Shown: positions 10,687 to 17,585 of the stretch, piece after piece
Layout: each line of letters opens with the position of its first letter
Position numbering within the stretch: position 1 is the first letter of the stretch
Source: Radicibacter daui
Lineage (GTDB): Bacteria > Pseudomonadota > Alphaproteobacteria > Radicibacterales > Radicibacteraceae
Direction: 5' to 3'
Length of the DNA: 64,000 nt
Assembly (NCBI GenBank): GCA_030657355.1
Contig: CP131056.1
Coordinates: 823,001-887,000, forward strand
The notes under the pieces: generated by a model
Databases searched by the model: none
The model's input: only the letters and a program-made list of their open reading frames with translations
What the model was told of the DNA's origin: nothing
Made by a program: the position numbers and the translations under genes

Positions 10687-10875
10687 GCCTTCCGGCTTTC
10701 GCGGCCCGACGGCATTCAGGCCCCGCCGGAGGCCCTCCGGGACATCCCGCCTCTCGACGCCGTCTTGTTTCGCGGGCATGTTCCGCCAGCGGTGGCCTTG
10801 CCGCCTCTTTGCCCTCGATACGAGGGCCGGGGAGGGGCAGGCGCGCCGGATGAGACAGACGGAAGTATTTGGAAA

Positions 10876-12090
10876 ATGGCCCCCTATCGTGGAGATACCG
10901 CTCCTGCCGCAGCCGATCCTGCTGTCAGCACCGGAGCCCTGCTGCCGCCCGATGCCGAGGGGATAAGCCATGTCCTGCCACGCCTTGCCGATGCGCGCCG
11001 CCTGATCATCAAGATCGGCTCGGCCCTGCTGGTGGATGGCAAGACGCACCAGATCAGGCGCGAATGGCTGGATGCGCTGGCGGACGATGTCGCCGCGCTC
11101 AAGGCCCGCGGGGTGGAGGTTGCCATCGTCACCTCCGGCTCCATCGCCGTCGGGCGGGAGCATCTGGGCCTTACCGGCCGGGTGCTGAAGCTGGAGGAAA
11201 AGCAGGCTGCCGCCGCCACCGGCCAGATTCGCCTTGCCCATGCCTATCAGGAAACGCTCGCCCGCCACGGCATCACCGTGGCGCAGGTGCTGCTGACCAT
11301 TGACGATACCGAGGAGCGGCGCCGCCACCTCAATGCGCGCGCCACCATCTCCACCCTGCTCGGTCTCGGCGCCGTGCCGATCATCAACGAGAACGATACG
11401 GTCGCGACCTCGGAGATTCGCTTTGGCGATAATGATCGCCTCGCCGCCCGCGTCGGGCAGATGATCTCCGCCGATACGCTCGTTCTGCTGTCGGATATCG
11501 ACGGGCTCTACACCGCCGATCCGCGCAAGGATCCGGATGCCCGCCACCTGCCGGTCATCCAGATGCTGACGCCGGAGATCGAGGCGATGGCCGGCGAGCC
11601 GCCGCCCGGTTACAGCTCCGGCGGCATGGTCACCAAGATCGCCGCCGCCCGTATCGCCACGGCTGCCGGCAGCCGCATGCTGATCGCCAATGGCCACCGC
11701 ATGAACCCGCTCTCCGCGCTGGAGACGGGGGAGGCGAAATGTAGCTGGTTTCTGCCGCAGGCCAACCCGCTCACCGCCCGCAAGCGCTGGATCGCCGGCC
11801 ATGTCAGCCCAGCCGGTTCGGTGGTGGTGGATGACGGTGCCGTCAAGGCGCTCGCCGCCGGCAAGTCGCTGTTGCCCGCCGGTGTGGTGGCGGTGGAAGG
11901 CGGTTTCGAGCGCGGCGATGCCATCCTCGTGCGCAGCCGCTCCGGCCAGGTGTTGGGGCGCGGCCTCAGCGCCTATAGCGCCGCCGATGCCCGTCTCCTC
12001 CTTGGCCGCCGCTCCGGCGAGATCGAAGGTCTTCTCGGCTATCGCGGCCGCGACGAGCTCATCCACCGCGACGACCTGGTGCTGGATTGA
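10876..12090 (+). CDS. proB: Glutamate 5-kinase
   Basis: Catalyses the first step of proline synthesis, ATP-dependent phosphorylation of glutamate. An amino-acid-kinase domain spans ~35-290 ([60 protein letters not shown]), followed by a C-terminal PUA domain (from about [20 protein letters not shown]). ATG 10876 was chosen over 10765, which would add a low-complexity leader; a GGAA element lies just upstream. At 404 aa it is longer than E. coli ProB because of an N-terminal tail of ~30 residues. proA lies 4.2 kb downstream, separated by inserted genes. Confidence 0.93.
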
Positions 12091-12118: not shown

Positions 12119-12241
12119 GCAGGCCGCACAGCTTTCGGGCATCCTGCCCATTTTCTGGCGCAGCGTTTTGGATGGCGAAACGCCCAAGTCCTTGAGAATT
12201 CAGTGTCCCGTCTCTGGCACGCCCGTTGCTGATAAGGAAAA

Positions 12242-12296
12242 GAGAGTAGAAGCGGTCAGGGCTGCCCGCCTTTGGTGGAGCCGTCCGGGACATTGC
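12242..12296 (+). promoter_or_regulatory. Candidate NMT1-type (xanthine) riboswitch, copy 1
   Basis: A 55-base leader element ends 34 bases before the deaminase start. It carries GAGTAGAAGC (12242-12251), GTCAG (12253-12257) and CATTGCTC (12289-12296). GAG/CTC can form a closing helix and GGC/GCC plus CCGCC/GGTGG an inner hairpin, leaving two internal loops that hold the conserved bases. The same blocks in the same order recur at 13751-13809 before the next gene, while the inner hairpin differs in sequence but stays paired. Recurrence before two adjacent, apparently purine-related genes suggests a ligand-binding RNA; the layout agrees with what I recall of the NMT1 class that senses xanthine and uric acid. 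This is not verified against a covariance model. Confidence 0.5.
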
Positions 12297-12330
12297 TCGG
12301 CAAACGATCCCTTTATGATCGAGGTGTCCG

Positions 12331-13719
12331 GTGCCGCCTTCTTCTTTGCCTTCTGGCGATTTTCTCGTGACCAATGCCGTCGGCATCCTCACCGGCCTTC
12401 CCGGTGTAGCGGCCCGTACCAGCGGCGCCATCCGTGTAATCGCCGGCAAGATCGCCGAAATCGGGGCTCTTTCGCCCCGATCCGGCGAGAAGATTGTGGA
12501 TGCTTCCGGCTGCGTGGTAACGCCCGGTCTCATCAACACCCATCACCATCTCTTCCAGAGTGTGCTGAAGGCGATTCCGGAGGGGCTGAACGAGGCACTC
12601 GCCCGCTGGCTGCGCCTTGTGCCCTATAGCTACTGGCACAGGCTGGATGAGGAGGCGATGCGCCTTGCCGCCACCATTGGCCTTGCCGAACTGGCGCTCT
12701 CCGGAGCCACCACGGTGGCGGACCATCACTACATCTATTCCCCGCATTATGATTTTGACCCCAACGAGATCCTGTTCGAGGTGGCGGAAAAGTTCGGCCT
12801 GCGCTTTGTGCTGGCGCGCGGCGGGGCTACCAAGGGGCGCAATTTTGATGATGGCCGCTCCATCCCGCTGCCGACAGAGCCGGTAGCGCAGATGCTGAAG
12901 GCGGTGGAGGCGGCGGCAAAGCGCTGGCATGACCCGGCGCCGGACGCCATGCGGCGGGTGGTAATGGCCCTGACGACACCGACCTTCTCGCTGGAAGAGG
13001 CAGAGCTGAAGGAGATTGCCGCCGGTGCCCGTGCCATGGGCCTCCGGCTGCATTCTCACCTGTCTGAAAACATGGACTATGTCGACTACACGCTCGGCCG
13101 CTACGGCAAGCGCCCGGTCCATTGGCTCGCCGGGCACGACTGGCTGGGGCCGGATGTGTGGTTTGCCCATCTGGTGGAGTGCGATCCTTCCGAAGTGGCA
13201 CTGCTGGCAGAAACCGGCACCGGCATGGCGCATTGCCCGCAGGCCAATGCCCGTCTCGGCTCCGGCATCGCCCCGGCCGATGTCCTCTTCAAGGCCGGCG
13301 GCGCGGTTTCCCTTGCGGTGGATGGCGCAGCGGCCAACGAGGCGGCGGATATGATAAGCGCGCTCTACAGCGCCTTTTCCCTGCACCGCGCCGGCAAGGG
13401 CGTCAGCGCGGTTGCGGCGGAGGAGGTGCTCAGCTGGGCGACAGCCGGCGGCGCGCGGGTGCTGGGCATGGAGGCTATCGGCACCATCGAGCCCGGCAAG
13501 GCGGCTGATCTCGCGCTCTTCGATCTCTCCCACCCGCGTTATCTCGGCCAGCATGACCGGCTGGTGGGGCCGGTCATCTCCGGCGGCGCAGCGTTTCTGA
13601 AGGCAAGTTTTGTCGCCGGCCGCCCGGTGGTGGAAGAGGGCCGCATCCCCTGGCTCGATATGGAGCAGCTGGCCGCCGATGCCGTGCGGGTTACCGCCCG
13701 TATCGCGGCGGCAGCCTGA
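12331..13719 (+). CDS. 8-oxoguanine deaminase-type amidohydrolase
   Basis: Metal-dependent amidohydrolase of the TRZ/ATZ-guanine deaminase group, best match 8-oxoguanine deaminase (8-oxoguanine to uric acid plus ammonia). Features of the 462-aa protein are metal ligands H71-x-H73 in TPGLINTHHH, a conserved loop GATTVADHHY, a further ligand in HSHLSE (~240), and an Asp near residue 330 in SLAVDGAAANEA. The start is a GTG at 12331 with GAGGTG just upstream. Related enzymes act on hydroxyatrazines or N-formimino compounds, so the substrate is inferred. The candidate xanthine-responsive leader in front and the oxygenase behind support a purine substrate. The gene lies on the plus strand between proB and proA. 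Confidence 0.78.
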   Translation: MPPSSLPSGDFLVTNAVGILTGLPGVAARTSGAIRVIAGKIAEIGALSPRSGEKIVDASGCVVTPGLINTHHHLFQSVLKAIPEGLNEALARWLRLVPYSYWHRLDEEAMRLAATIGLAELALSGATTVADHHYIYSPHYDFDPNEILFEVAEKFGLRFVLARGGATKGRNFDDGRSIPLPTEPVAQMLKAVEAAAKRWHDPAPDAMRRVVMALTTPTFSLEEAELKEIAAGARAMGLRLHSHLSENMDYVDYTLGRYGKRPVHWLAGHDWLGPDVWFAHLVECDPSEVALLAETGTGMAHCPQANARLGSGIAPADVLFKAGGAVSLAVDGAAANEAADMISALYSAFSLHRAGKGVSAVAAEEVLSWATAGGARVLGMEAIGTIEPGKAADLALFDLSHPRYLGQHDRLVGPVISGGAAFLKASFVAGRPVVEEGRIPWLDMEQLAADAVRVTARIAAAA

Positions 13720-13750
13720 AGGGCAGGGCGGCAGATGGTTTCGCAAATCC

Positions 13751-13809
13751 GGAGTAGAAGCAGTCAGCGCGGCGGGCAGAATGTTTCCCCCCGCGTCGGT
13801 CATTGCTCC
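13751..13809 (+). promoter_or_regulatory. Candidate NMT1-type (xanthine) riboswitch, copy 2
   Basis: The second copy of the leader lies 55 bases before the oxygenase start. GGAG (13751-13754) pairs with CTCC (13806-13809) as the closing helix; GTAGAAGC, GTCAGCG and CATTGCTC are conserved relative to copy 1. The inner stem is GCGGG (13772-13776) with CCCGC (13790-13794), different in sequence from copy 1 but again able to pair, which is covariation-like support for an RNA fold. Confidence 0.5.
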
Positions 13810-13863
13810 TTCAACCGGCCAAAGGTTTTGGTGCCTGCGGCCACCCCGATGGAGACGTTACCC

Positions 13864-14847
13864 ATGACGACTGACATGAAAGAAGTGGCGCGCGAGCGCA
13901 CCTATGGCGGCCTCGGCGGCACCCGCGAACGCTCGGTGCCCCGCATCGACATGAGCGATTTTGAAGCCCGCAAGGCCGGGATCGCCGACCAGCTGTGGGC
14001 GGCGGCCACCGAAATCGGCTTTTTCCAGCTCATCAACCACGGCATTCCGCAAAGCCAGATCGACGAAGCCTTTCTGCTGTGCGAGCGATTCTTCGATCTG
14101 CCGCAGGAGGTGAAAGCCGGCATGCCGCTCATCCGCGGCACCAATGCCGGCTGGGAATATATGTCCCAGGTGCGCCCCTCCACCGGCACGGCGGATCGCA
14201 AGGAGAGTTACCAGATCACCCTGCCGCGCATGAAGGACCTCTGGCCGGGCGAAGCACTACCGGGCTTCAAGGCCATCATGCTGGCTTTCGAGCGGGCCAA
14301 CTGGGCGCTCGGCATGAAGGTGCTCTCCTGCTTTGCCCTGAAACTCGGTTTTGCCGAGGATGCCTTTACCGACTGGCATGATCCGCTGTCGCCGGAATAC
14401 CAGTCGACCTTGCGCCTTTTGCATTACCTGCCGATGGAAAATGCCAAGCCTGAGGATTTTTCGGCCTGGCGGGCGGGCGCCCATACGGATTTTGACTGCC
14501 TGACCTTGCTGCACCAGCGCCCCGGCCAGGGCGGGTTGCAGCTCTGCCCGGGCAAGGACGCGGCGAGCGGTGAACTGGAATGGACGGATGTGGAACCGGC
14601 GCCAGGCCTCATCACCTGCAATATCGGCGACATGCTGATGCGCTGGAGCGATGACCAGCTGCTCTCTACCCTTCACCGCGTGCGCATGCCGCATCCGGAT
14701 GAATATCTGGGCCCGCGTTATTCCATGCCCTTCTTCTGCCAGGCCAACCGCGACGCGGTGATCGAAGGGCCGGGCAAGCTCTACGACCCCATCACCGCCC
14801 ATGATTACCTGCAGCAGCGCATCGCGGCCAATTTCGCGAAGAAGTGA
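13864..14847 (+). CDS. Isopenicillin N synthase-like Fe(II)/2-oxoglutarate oxygenase
   Basis: A 327-aa member of the DIOX_N / 2OG-FeII_Oxy family of soluble hydroxylases. The N-terminal part shows the family motif IGFFQLINHGIP. The iron facial triad is visible as H206-x-D208 in AHTDFD and a distal His near 270 in STLHRVRMP; the 2-oxoglutarate-binding Arg is in RYSMPFF (~285). ATG 13864 has GGAGA upstream; a start at 13735 would read through the leader RNA. The substrate is unknown. Its own copy of the purine-type leader and the adjacent 8-oxoguanine deaminase suggest a role in oxidising a purine or a breakdown product, but this is inference. Confidence 0.85.
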   Translation: MTTDMKEVARERTYGGLGGTRERSVPRIDMSDFEARKAGIADQLWAAATEIGFFQLINHGIPQSQIDEAFLLCERFFDLPQEVKAGMPLIRGTNAGWEYMSQVRPSTGTADRKESYQITLPRMKDLWPGEALPGFKAIMLAFERANWALGMKVLSCFALKLGFAEDAFTDWHDPLSPEYQSTLRLLHYLPMENAKPEDFSAWRAGAHTDFDCLTLLHQRPGQGGLQLCPGKDAASGELEWTDVEPAPGLITCNIGDMLMRWSDDQLLSTLHRVRMPHPDEYLGPRYSMPFFCQANRDAVIEGPGKLYDPITAHDYLQQRIAANFAKK

Positions 14848-14991: not shown

Positions 14992-16104
14992 TCAGAACGG
15001 GTCGACCGGCTTAAGTCGCTTCAGCCAGCCATCCACCGTGCTGGCGATGCGGGAAAGCTCGCCATCGCCCTGGCCCACCATTGGCACCTCCAGGCTGTCG
15101 ATCAGCTCGTGATGCGCATCGAGGAATCTCAGTCGTGCGCCGCCGCTGGCGGGAGGGCGGGAGAGATCATTTTCGGTGTGGTTGATCATCAGGCAGGCGA
15201 TCTGCCGCTGGGTCAGCCGGTCCATGTGGGAGTGCAGGCGTTCGCTGGCGGTCGCCACATTGGCGCCGAGGCTCGGGTCATCGACGTCGGCATTGGTTTC
15301 CACCACCAGCGTTGGGCGTTTGATCGCCCCGATAAGGGCGGAGAGTTCACGCGGGTTGAAATCCACCACCCGCACGCCGCCGCGCAGATTGCAGGCCCGT
15401 GCGGCGCCGCGCACTTTCTCGCGGTCGATCTCCATCTGCCCATGGCCGGTCTCGCCGTCACCGGCGGTGTGGCCGCTCGCCGCCTGTTCGCTCCAGCCGA
15501 GATAGAGGCGGGCATGGTTTTGCAGATCGGCAAGCTTGAGGCGCGGGTCGAAGACCAGGCTTTCATCCATCAGCTTCTTGCCGCCGACAACCAGCGCCAC
15601 CTGCACGGCGTCGAACGGTACGGAGACGGCGCGCGGCTGGTTGGAGACGGCATTGACCCGCAGCACCGGCAGGCGACCGGCAACGGCCTTCACCGTTTCC
15701 TGGCACAGGGTGCGGATGAACTTGCCAATGGCGGCATCCTCGCCGGGTTTCGCAAAGTCAAAATTATAGCTCACCAGCAGCAGCGGGCGCGGCGAGCGGG
15801 AGAGCAGCAGCGTTATCTCGGCGGCGCTGAAGCCGGCAAGCGCAGGAGAGGGGCTGCCGGCGAGGGTCTTCAGTGCCTCGGCGATGCGGCTCTCGTCCGG
15901 CGGTACGGCCTCTTCATAGGGCTCATCATCCGCATCGCTGCCGATGGTCCAGTCATCCACTCCGGTGCTGAGCGGTGTCTCCACCGGAATCGGGGCAGCG
16001 GCAGGCGCCGCCGGCTTTATCTTGTCGAGCGGGCTCGGCAGCGACTCAAAATCCGCCAGCATGGCGTCGATATCCAGAAACGACTCGTCTTTAGTGCCAA
16101 CCAC
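14992..16104 (-). CDS. Hypothetical protein (370 aa)
   Basis: I do not recognise this protein. It starts with GTG at 16104 behind a purine-rich GGGGGGGA ribosome site. Residues ~1-90 are acidic and Pro/Ala-rich and probably disordered (LDKIKPAAPAAAPIPVETP). The rest alternates hydrophobic strands and helices (RPLLLVSYNFDFA, ALVVGGKKLMDESL, PTLVVETNADVDDPS, QIACLMINHTENDL), suggesting a Rossmann- or flavodoxin-like alpha/beta fold without a P-loop. There is no signal peptide or membrane segment. It is a single gene convergent with the oxygenase and divergent from proA. Confidence 0.7.
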   Translation of the reverse strand: MVGTKDESFLDIDAMLADFESLPSPLDKIKPAAPAAAPIPVETPLSTGVDDWTIGSDADDEPYEEAVPPDESRIAEALKTLAGSPSPALAGFSAAEITLLLSRSPRPLLLVSYNFDFAKPGEDAAIGKFIRTLCQETVKAVAGRLPVLRVNAVSNQPRAVSVPFDAVQVALVVGGKKLMDESLVFDPRLKLADLQNHARLYLGWSEQAASGHTAGDGETGHGQMEIDREKVRGAARACNLRGGVRVVDFNPRELSALIGAIKRPTLVVETNADVDDPSLGANVATASERLHSHMDRLTQRQIACLMINHTENDLSRPPASGGARLRFLDAHHELIDSLEVPMVGQGDGELSRIASTVDGWLKRLKPVDPF

Positions 16105-16286: not shown

Positions 16287-17585
16287 GTGTCTTCGCTTGC
16301 CCAGCTCCAGCCGGCCTCCGGCACCCATGATACCCTGGCCGCACAAATGCGGGCGCTGGGTGTTGCCGCGCGCGAGGCTGCGGCCGGGCTTGCCCTTGCC
16401 GATGCCGCCACCAAGAACAAGGCACTCCATGCCGCCGCCGCCGCGATCCGCGCCAGGGCAGCGATGATCCTGGAGGCGAGCCGGCGTGAGGTGGAAAGTG
16501 CCCGGGCCCGCAGTCTGGGCGCTGCCCTCATCGACCGGCTGGAACTCACGCCGTCCCGTATCGAAGCGATGGCCACCGGCCTTGAAGAAGTCGCTGCCCT
16601 GCCGGACCCCGTCGGCGATGTGATTGCCGAATGGGACCGGCCCAATGGCCTTAACATCCAGCGCGTGCGTGTGCCGCTCGGCGTCATTGCCATCATCTAC
16701 GAATCGCGCCCGAACGTCACGGCCGATGCCGGTGGGCTGTGCCTCAAGTCGGGCAATGCCGCCATCCTGCGCGGCGGGTCGGAAAGTTTCGAGACCTCCG
16801 GCCTTATCGCAGCCTGCCTGCGCGAAGGCCTTGCCGCTGCCGGCCTGCCGGAAGCGTCGATCCAGCAGGTGCCTACGACGGACCGTGCGGCGGTTGGCGA
16901 ACTGCTGCGCATGGATGAGTTCGTCGACGTCGTGGTGCCGCGTGGCGGTCGTTCGCTGATCGAGCGTGTGGCTGCAGAAAGCCGCGTGCCGGTCTTCAAG
17001 CATCTGGATGGTATTTGCCACGTCTATGTGCATGAAAGTGCCGATGCCGCCATGGCGCGCGACGTCATCGTCAATGCCAAGCTGCGCCGCACCGGCGTAT
17101 GCGGTTCGGCCGAAACATTGCTGGTCGACCGCAAGGTGGCGGCGAGCCATCTGCCCGGCATCCTCGCCGCTCTTATCGACCGGGGCTGCGAAATCCGGGG
17201 AGATGCGGAAGTCATGGCGCTGGAGCCGCGCTCCCTTGCCGCGACGGAAGCGGACTGGAGCACCGAATATCTCGACGCCATCATTTCCGTGAAGCTGGTG
17301 GATGGGGTGGCGGAGGCGGTCGCCCATATCAACCGTTATGGCAGCCACCATACCGAGAGCATCCTTGCGGCCGATCCGGCGGCGGTGGAGGCCTTCTTCA
17401 ACGGGGTGGACAGCGCCATCCTGCTGCATAATGCCTCTACCCAGTTTGCCGATGGCGGCGAGTTCGGTATGGGCGCGGAAATCGGCATTTCCACCGGAAA
17501 GTTGCATGCGCGCGGGCCGGTGGGGGCAGAGCAGCTCACGAGCTACAAGTACCTCGTGCGCGGCTCCGGCCAGTGCCGTCCGTAA
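16287..17585 (+). CDS. proA: Glutamate-5-semialdehyde dehydrogenase
   Basis: Second proline-synthesis enzyme: NADPH-dependent reduction of glutamyl-5-phosphate to the semialdehyde. The 432-aa aldehyde-dehydrogenase-fold protein shows [17 protein letters not shown], the nucleotide region [13 protein letters not shown] and the active-site Cys in [13 protein letters not shown]. The start is GTG 16287. nadD begins inside its 3' end (13-base overlap), so proA-nadD-rsfS-rlmH probably form one operon. The separation from proB by inserted genes is noted elsewhere. Confidence 0.96.

Follow-up and report, generated by a model that had tools for sequence, protein, structure and literature searches.

Why would a bacterium place a 2-oxoglutarate/Fe(II)-dependent oxygenase of the isopenicillin-N-synthase (IPNS)-like group behind an RNA that senses xanthine, and which compound does this enzyme oxidize? 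The question is raised by a pair of genes in the alphaproteobacterium Radicibacter daui, located within a 64,000-nucleotide stretch of contig CP131056.1 (positions 823,001 to 887,000), referred to here as the window. On the forward strand, a xanthine (NMT1) riboswitch aptamer at 12239..12303 precedes an amidohydrolase gene of the PRK12393 family (12331..13719; GTG start; PF01979), predicted to encode a deaminase acting on a 2-amino-oxo purine or pteridine base. A second aptamer of the same class at 13747..13813 precedes the oxygenase gene (13864..14847; PF14226 and PF03171), whose product has a fold most like that of thymine-7-hydroxylase (T7H). Both open reading frames (ORFs) are intact, share one strand and occupy positions 12331-14847, as an initial annotation had correctly placed them. 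At a probability of roughly 0.55, we favor the interpretation that the oxygenase is a T7H-like enzyme of free oxopurine bases, feeding or trimming the xanthine/urate pool.

The leader shared by the two genes is a known RNA, RF03054, and both copies exceed the curated gathering score of 36 bits, with 49.7 bits on the deaminase side and 51.2 bits on the oxygenase side. Two claims of the initial annotation, that the oxygenase carries its own copy of the deaminase leader and that the genes share their control, are thereby borne out, as both lie under a purine-sensing RNA. A covariance-model search of the R. daui genome returned these two copies only, one per gene, and a search of 96 genomes of the class matched R. 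daui alone. Binding of xanthine or urate and control of translation by both window aptamers are predicted from their sequences.

Related loci were surveyed in a set of 80 (L016-L095; 1.54 Mb), the best 80 of at least 567 confirmed oxygenase relatives; the set was chosen by the oxygenase, is skewed to window-like Alphaproteobacteria and carries gene labels from our own BLAST references and score cut-offs rather than curated annotation. A strict aptamer pattern matched the oxygenase strand at 122 places, with no match on the opposite strand or in three Markov shuffles, and the occurrence of the riboswitch is not due to chance. The pattern lay within 600 nt upstream of the oxygenase in 71 loci; covariance-model matches added L034, L038, L058 and L062, bringing the number with a riboswitch before the oxygenase to 75 of 80, and two further covariance matches (L057 at 15307 and L018 on the minus strand) are probably due to chance. 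The gene following the pattern was the oxygenase in 81 cases, an NMT1/THI5-type binding protein in 39 and the PRK12393 deaminase in 2, so that in these loci the oxygenase family is the commonest gene under the xanthine riboswitch. No paralogous oxygenase in the 80 loci was preceded by any of the 122 matches. A separate group of plasmid loci (L005-L015) carried the RNA in 10 of 11.

The most common gene order was riboswitch, binding protein, ATPase, permease, PRK12393, riboswitch, oxygenase, and the bare arrangement of the window (riboswitch, deaminase, riboswitch, oxygenase) recurred in L058 and L085. PRK12393 was present in 37 of the 80 loci, a TadA-like deaminase in 30, PRK07583 in 17, creatininase in 14 and PRK08203 in 4, and 30 loci had no amidohydrolase deaminase within the stretch. 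The deaminase is thus an optional partner of the oxygenase; this observation and the count of 75 riboswitch-preceded oxygenases are new here.

RF03054 was matched in 16 of 18 oxygenase-bearing genomes, with 26 matches in total, of which 25 lay at the oxygenase locus by their coordinates and one belonged to the contig-edge case L071. Thirteen of the 14 genomes without a linked amidohydrolase deaminase had riboswitches only at the oxygenase, and the remaining one (L043) had none. A PRK12393 search of 15 entries without a linked deaminase found nothing above 43% identity; a distant match occurred in nine entries and none in six, with two of the nine, L004 and L043, apparently representing one genome (identical deaminase match coordinates). 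The oxygenase thus does not need the PRK12393 deaminase.

The oxygenase contains DIOX_N (71.7 bits, cut-off 27.3) and 2OG-FeII_Oxy (69.6 bits, cut-off 23), which were its only domains at E ≤ 0.001, a TauD-type domain being absent at this threshold; NCBIfam returned nothing for it. Translation probably begins at the ATG at 13864, downstream of a GGAG Shine-Dalgarno match, with 13849 as an alternative start. In the numbering of the translation from 13849 (P0001), used below, the iron triad is H212/D214/H276, corresponding to H207/D209/H271 from the ATG; the triad is complete, as first proposed, and the earlier numbering (H206, D208, H270) was off by one. These residues, which form the HxD...H motif, and R290 and S292 of the RxS 2-oxoglutarate motif are invariant in 57 aligned sequences (35 orthologues, the window included, and 22 paralogues). 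Among 60 of the 77 matches on plasmids, a block at 59-79% identity is followed by matches at about 37% or less, a drop that delimits a clear orthologue group. A search of 385 genomes of the class found the oxygenase in R. daui and one other genome only.

An AlphaFold2 model of the oxygenase, built with 47 sequences from the window and genome contigs, reached a mean pLDDT of 89.6 and a pTM of 0.90. When it was compared with the PDB using Foldseek, the top 11 chains were all T7H, and structural realignment again placed T7H first (Z 35.1; root-mean-square deviation 2.2 over 288 residues), followed by TraH (33.6) and others at 32.4 or below, which assigns the model to the T7H fold. The T7H of Neurospora crassa (5C3P-5C3S) has the same fold and all iron and 2-oxoglutarate residues, together with a stacking phenylalanine and an asparagine contacting the base O2, at about 34% identity to the window protein. 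Its base is stacked between F292 and Y217 and contacted by N87, E122 and N294 (PMC4787775). The window enzyme has F296, F215, N99, Q122 and Q298 at these positions, so that, among the T7H substrate contacts R190, F292, Y217, N87, E122 and N294, the arginine, the phenylalanine and the first asparagine are kept, whereas Y217 is replaced by F and both E122 and N294 by Q.

The two glutamines characterize the family. N99 and Q122 are each conserved in 35 of 35 orthologues and Q298 in 34 of 35, while the 22 paralogues carry Y/N/V and T/D/S/E/G at the Q122 and Q298 positions, and the equivalents of N87/E122/N294 are A/H/H in 3oox and W/Y/D in an ancestral ethylene-forming enzyme. Judged by this resemblance, the pocket probably binds a base with a specificity of its own, and the enzyme would resemble T7H in how it works without being classed as one; T7H itself acts on thymine, 5-hydroxymethyluracil (5hmU) and 5-formyluracil (5fU) (PMC4787775). 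The fold and the amide or carboxylate contact residues at the same places thus favor the base-type part of the purine substrate first proposed for the oxygenase. The existence of T7H (PMC4787775) also means that an IPNS-type oxygenase of free nucleobases is no novelty.

The partner enzyme was first described as a purine deaminase, and its family is PRK12393 rather than that of the 8-oxoguanine deaminases. The window deaminase passes PRK12393 (644.3 bits, cut-off 543) and fails PRK08203, the 8-oxoguanine deaminase family (398.7 bits, cut-off 532). The nearest solved structure is 2PAJ (442 bits), which we take to be the isoxanthopterin deaminase of Hall 2010, followed by 3HPA (273 bits); in our own alignment, identity was 51.0% to 2PAJ and 38.5% to 3HPA. 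In a 53-sequence tree, supported by SH-aLRT values alone and with 3HPA flagged by the program as a long branch, the window deaminase groups with 2PAJ, across a branch with SH-aLRT 100 from PRK08203 and 3HPA. On the basis of the score and this placement, identity as an 8-oxoguanine deaminase (PRK08203; 3HPA, PA0142) was rejected; that group is a sister amidohydrolase family of the same fold. The window enzyme also shares with the PRK12393/2PAJ group a Gln where 3HPA has its active-site Cys, a weak marker of PRK08203, given that five PRK08203 sequences have C in 2, T in 2 and V in 1 and that 4 of 46 PRK12393 sequences have Asn. Separately, a 2026 report places N2,N2-dimethylguanine hydrolases in the AtzB/8-oxoguanine deaminase cluster (PMC13054789); that related deaminases have methylated guanines for natural substrates offers a possible lead as to what the gene pair handles.

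The genomic context provides a downstream pathway. The R. daui genome encodes xdhA (625, cut-off 467), xdhB (1226, cut-off 849.5) and OHCU decarboxylase (221, cut-off 96) together in one stretch, as well as a PuuD-type urate oxidase. Xanthine dehydrogenase (XDH) was above cut-off in 41 of 43 oxygenase genomes (the genome of L059 left out), making the oxygenase unlikely as its stand-in, and this was rejected as its usual role. Urate oxidase families were found in 35 of 44 genomes (PuuD in 33 and uricase in 2 others) and both were absent from 9, the FAD-type HpxO lying outside this search; with that limit, the role of usual stand-in for a known urate oxidase was likewise rejected. As the XDH and urate steps exist without the oxygenase, it more likely acts beside or before them.

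Some orthologues have purine-type neighbors. A Streptomyces plasmid (L013, 8944-11305) carries an orthologue at 60% identity, in an actinomycete, with a xanthine permease gene of the pbuX family (445 bits, cut-off 414) directly 3' of it, suggesting a gene transfer that preserved the association with purines. L071 has a run of oxygenase, 8-oxoguanine deaminase (634, cut-off 532), PRK07583 and a PnrA-like transporter. The proposed co-occurrence with 8-oxoguanine deaminase is rare (4 of the 80 loci), and the surveyed context showed no consistent tie of the orthologues to a non-purine pathway, the outcome first named as one that would refute the idea. For the purine-substrate idea as first put forward, such neighbors speak in favor and the optional nature of the deaminase against.

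In the interpretation we favor, the two genes would make up a small regulon that is controlled by xanthine riboswitches and handles a modified oxopurine-type base. The amidohydrolase would hydrolytically remove the 2-amino group from a base resembling guanine or pterin, and the oxygenase would sandwich a free, planar dioxo base between residues F296 and F215 beside Fe(II) (H212, D214, H276), with 2-oxoglutarate bound by R189, Y193, R290 and S292 and the edge of the base read by N99, Q122 and Q298. Oxidation would proceed in the manner of T7H, at either a ring carbon or a methyl substituent, and the product would enter the xanthine/urate pool, presumably in this order of steps, to be consumed by the separate XDH, PuuD-type urate oxidase and OHCU decarboxylase. 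Both mRNA leaders would sense xanthine or urate and set translation. Of this picture, the sequences establish the gene families, the iron triad, the riboswitches, the conservation and the presence of the downstream pathway; the free-base substrate, the choice of a purine over a pterin, the order of steps and the sign of control are inferred. T7H also N-demethylates 1-methylthymine, and a weaker guess within this interpretation is that the reaction demethylates a methylated oxopurine, which would yield xanthine directly.

Several observations weigh against this interpretation. By sequence, T7H ranks only third, after 3oox (a protein of unknown function) and the ancestral ethylene-forming enzyme. 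Of the 22 paralogues, 20 share N99. The stacking phenylalanine and the iron and 2-oxoglutarate residues are common to the wider oxygenase family, so that these general positions carry little information on the substrate. Five of the 80 loci (L018, L043, L060, L071 and L077) lack a riboswitch just before the oxygenase; in L060 a single riboswitch stands at the start of the operon instead, and L071 starts at a contig edge, with an aptamer in the same genome ending another contig after an ABC ATPase and a permease. The Streptomyces locus has no riboswitch either. The close transporter of the relatives is missing from the R. daui genome, where the best binding protein reaches 30%. The reported pterin activity of the deaminase's 2PAJ subgroup would point to pterins, and the predicted sign of control described below would fit a consumer of xanthine or urate better than a producer.

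The best-placed alternative, possible although distinctly less than probable, is pterin catabolism, with isoxanthopterin or another pterin as substrate of the deaminase and the lumazine so formed as that of the oxygenase; the riboswitch would then sense a urate-like signal only through a link between guanine and pterin degradation. The kinship of the deaminase to 2PAJ, at the far side of the SH-aLRT 100 branch from 3HPA, agrees with it, and the Sargasso Sea (2PAJ) subgroup is reported to be active on isoxanthopterin and pterin-6-carboxylate (PMC5270733). The PRK07583 "cytosine deaminase" of 17 loci would add to this through a possible kinship to the pterin deaminase Arad3529, which we treat as a lead only. 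Against this alternative, published ligand tests name xanthine, urate and 8-azaxanthine, and two riboswitch papers searched for the word pterin do not contain it. By our cut-offs, 43 of the 80 loci have the oxygenase and no PRK12393, and purine neighbors (pbuX, PRK08203 and the PnrA-like transporter) do occur. PRK12393 with 2PAJ and the clusters of PRK07583 and creatininase nevertheless leave room for pterins or other heterocycles.

The oxygenase could instead be a molybdenum-free purine hydroxylase that works alongside XDH, making xanthine from hypoxanthine or urate from xanthine; such an enzyme has a precedent of another fold. Fungal XanA xanthine hydroxylase is an Fe(II)/2-oxoglutarate purine oxygenase of the TauD type; the likeness to the window enzyme lies in this chemistry, the difference in the oxygenase family. 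The riboswitch ligand would be the product or the substrate of such a step, and the authors of the 2020 riboswitch study favor purine oxidation (PMC7373994). The presence of XDH in the window's genome and in nearly all the oxygenase genomes searched means that the enzyme would rarely be a replacement, and we consider this unlikely.

The sign of control bears on a further alternative. The only reporter test found in print, comparing the wild type and one mutant of a Hydrogenophaga leader in E. coli, indicates an OFF switch (PMC7373994). We predicted Shine-Dalgarno accessibility with and without a forced aptamer stem, a procedure that models three forced pairs rather than bound ligand, in 72 oxygenase leaders (window 13747-13900 and L016-L095). 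Across 48 non-redundant oxygenase leaders, forcing the stem changed mean accessibility by +0.144, with 24 leaders rising and 3 falling by more than 0.1; shuffling the linkers gave a mean of 0.009 (standard deviation 0.022, maximum 0.047), and none of 40 sets reached 0.144. An aptamer-swap control retained this lean, which is what linkers matching the invariant 3' strand would give, and did not separate natural from swapped pairs. Binding-protein leaders (n = 33) showed no lean, and the two window leaders moved oppositely, from 0.13 to 0.36 for the oxygenase and from 0.11 to 0.03 for the deaminase. Minimum-free-energy structures predicted for the two window leaders did not outperform those of shuffled sequences, and single folds were thus not used. 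The model therefore gives a lead, opposite to the published OFF reporter, that oxygenase leaders may be ON switches.

Such a lean, together with the 9 of 44 genomes lacking both PuuD and uricase, is what would be expected if the oxygenase consumed urate or xanthine and were induced by that substrate, opening or modifying urate or a urate product. Most genomes, that of R. daui among them, already have a known urate oxidase family; with the neutral binding-protein leaders, the opposite behavior of the window's deaminase leader and the OFF reporter, this renders the proposal quite improbable. It is very improbable that the oxygenase acts on an unrelated compound behind an incidentally placed riboswitch: the family is catalytically diverse, with many unrelated enzymes among the sequence matches, yet 75 of 80 loci, drawn from many genera, retain the placement, which is the sole RF03054 site in some genomes.

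The association itself has a precedent. Yu and Breaker 2020 (PMC7373994) describe pcbC-type oxygenases, NMT1/THI5, tauA, PRK12393, tadA and others behind this riboswitch; the dioxygenases are proposed to act on purines, with functions stated as not established, and no genes for oxidized-purine degradation are reported under the xanthine riboswitch. Their system of riboswitch, pcbC (IPNS-like) and PRK12393 has in common with the window the RNA class, the two gene types and the purine idea, and differs in that the window has its own aptamer for each gene and no linked transporter. The window pair is accordingly a new instance of a published association, and the novelty claimed for the riboswitch-oxygenase link and for the purine hypothesis falls away. 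The initial observation was real and correctly placed, and was misread in part, as to deaminase family and novelty. No later assignment of the oxygenase was found in the open literature, most subscription journals lying outside the search.

Rather unlikely is the boldest interpretation: that this is the first IPNS/T7H-type purine-base oxygenase, the core gene of the riboswitch regulon (its only gene in some genomes) with an ON leader, through which xanthine or urate induces oxopurine oxidation outside the XDH-uricase route. If real, an IPNS-type purine-base oxygenase would give purine salvage a further route, one based on Fe/2-oxoglutarate chemistry, next to that of the molybdenum enzymes. The function of the oxygenase bears on what the xanthine riboswitch does in nature, and the candidate substrates and residues form a small set that can be assayed directly.

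The survey also yielded arrangements of separate interest. Two aptamers about 190-330 nt apart precede a single oxygenase in L020, L026, L027, L030, L032, L037, L045, L063, L073 and L075, and covariance matches add L038 and L040. In 11 loci (L024, L046, L059, L062, L067, L068, L077, L078, L079, L083 and L089), the riboswitch-controlled oxygenase is followed on the same strand, at its end or shortly beyond, by another member of its superfamily (28-36% identity), perhaps reflecting two successive oxidations. A neighboring cluster of a PRK07583-like amidohydrolase and a creatininase-family protein, mostly with a second NMT1-type transporter, occurs in L028, L039, L065, L069, L072-L075, L077, L085, L088 and L097 (Rahnella), with additional genes for FAD-binding and flavodoxin-like reductase proteins in L077 and for an FAD-binding oxidoreductase and RidA in Rahnella; this cluster possibly encodes the next steps of the pathway. 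The TadA-like small deaminase of L016, L028, L041 and 27 more loci usually lies on the minus strand before the binding-protein gene. The TadA-like copy in L006 is nearest to the CMP/dCMP-type deaminases 8wlw and 5xko, followed by guanine deaminase 1wkq, and the protein may be a base deaminase rather than a tRNA editor.

Within the window, an ORF of 370 aa on the minus strand (14992-16104), with no Pfam or NCBIfam family match, lies between the oxygenase gene and proA. The deaminase/oxygenase pair itself lies between proB (10765-12090; TIGR01027, 405 bits, cut-off 186) and proA (16287-17585; 581 bits, cut-off 289), with obgE and nadD nearby.

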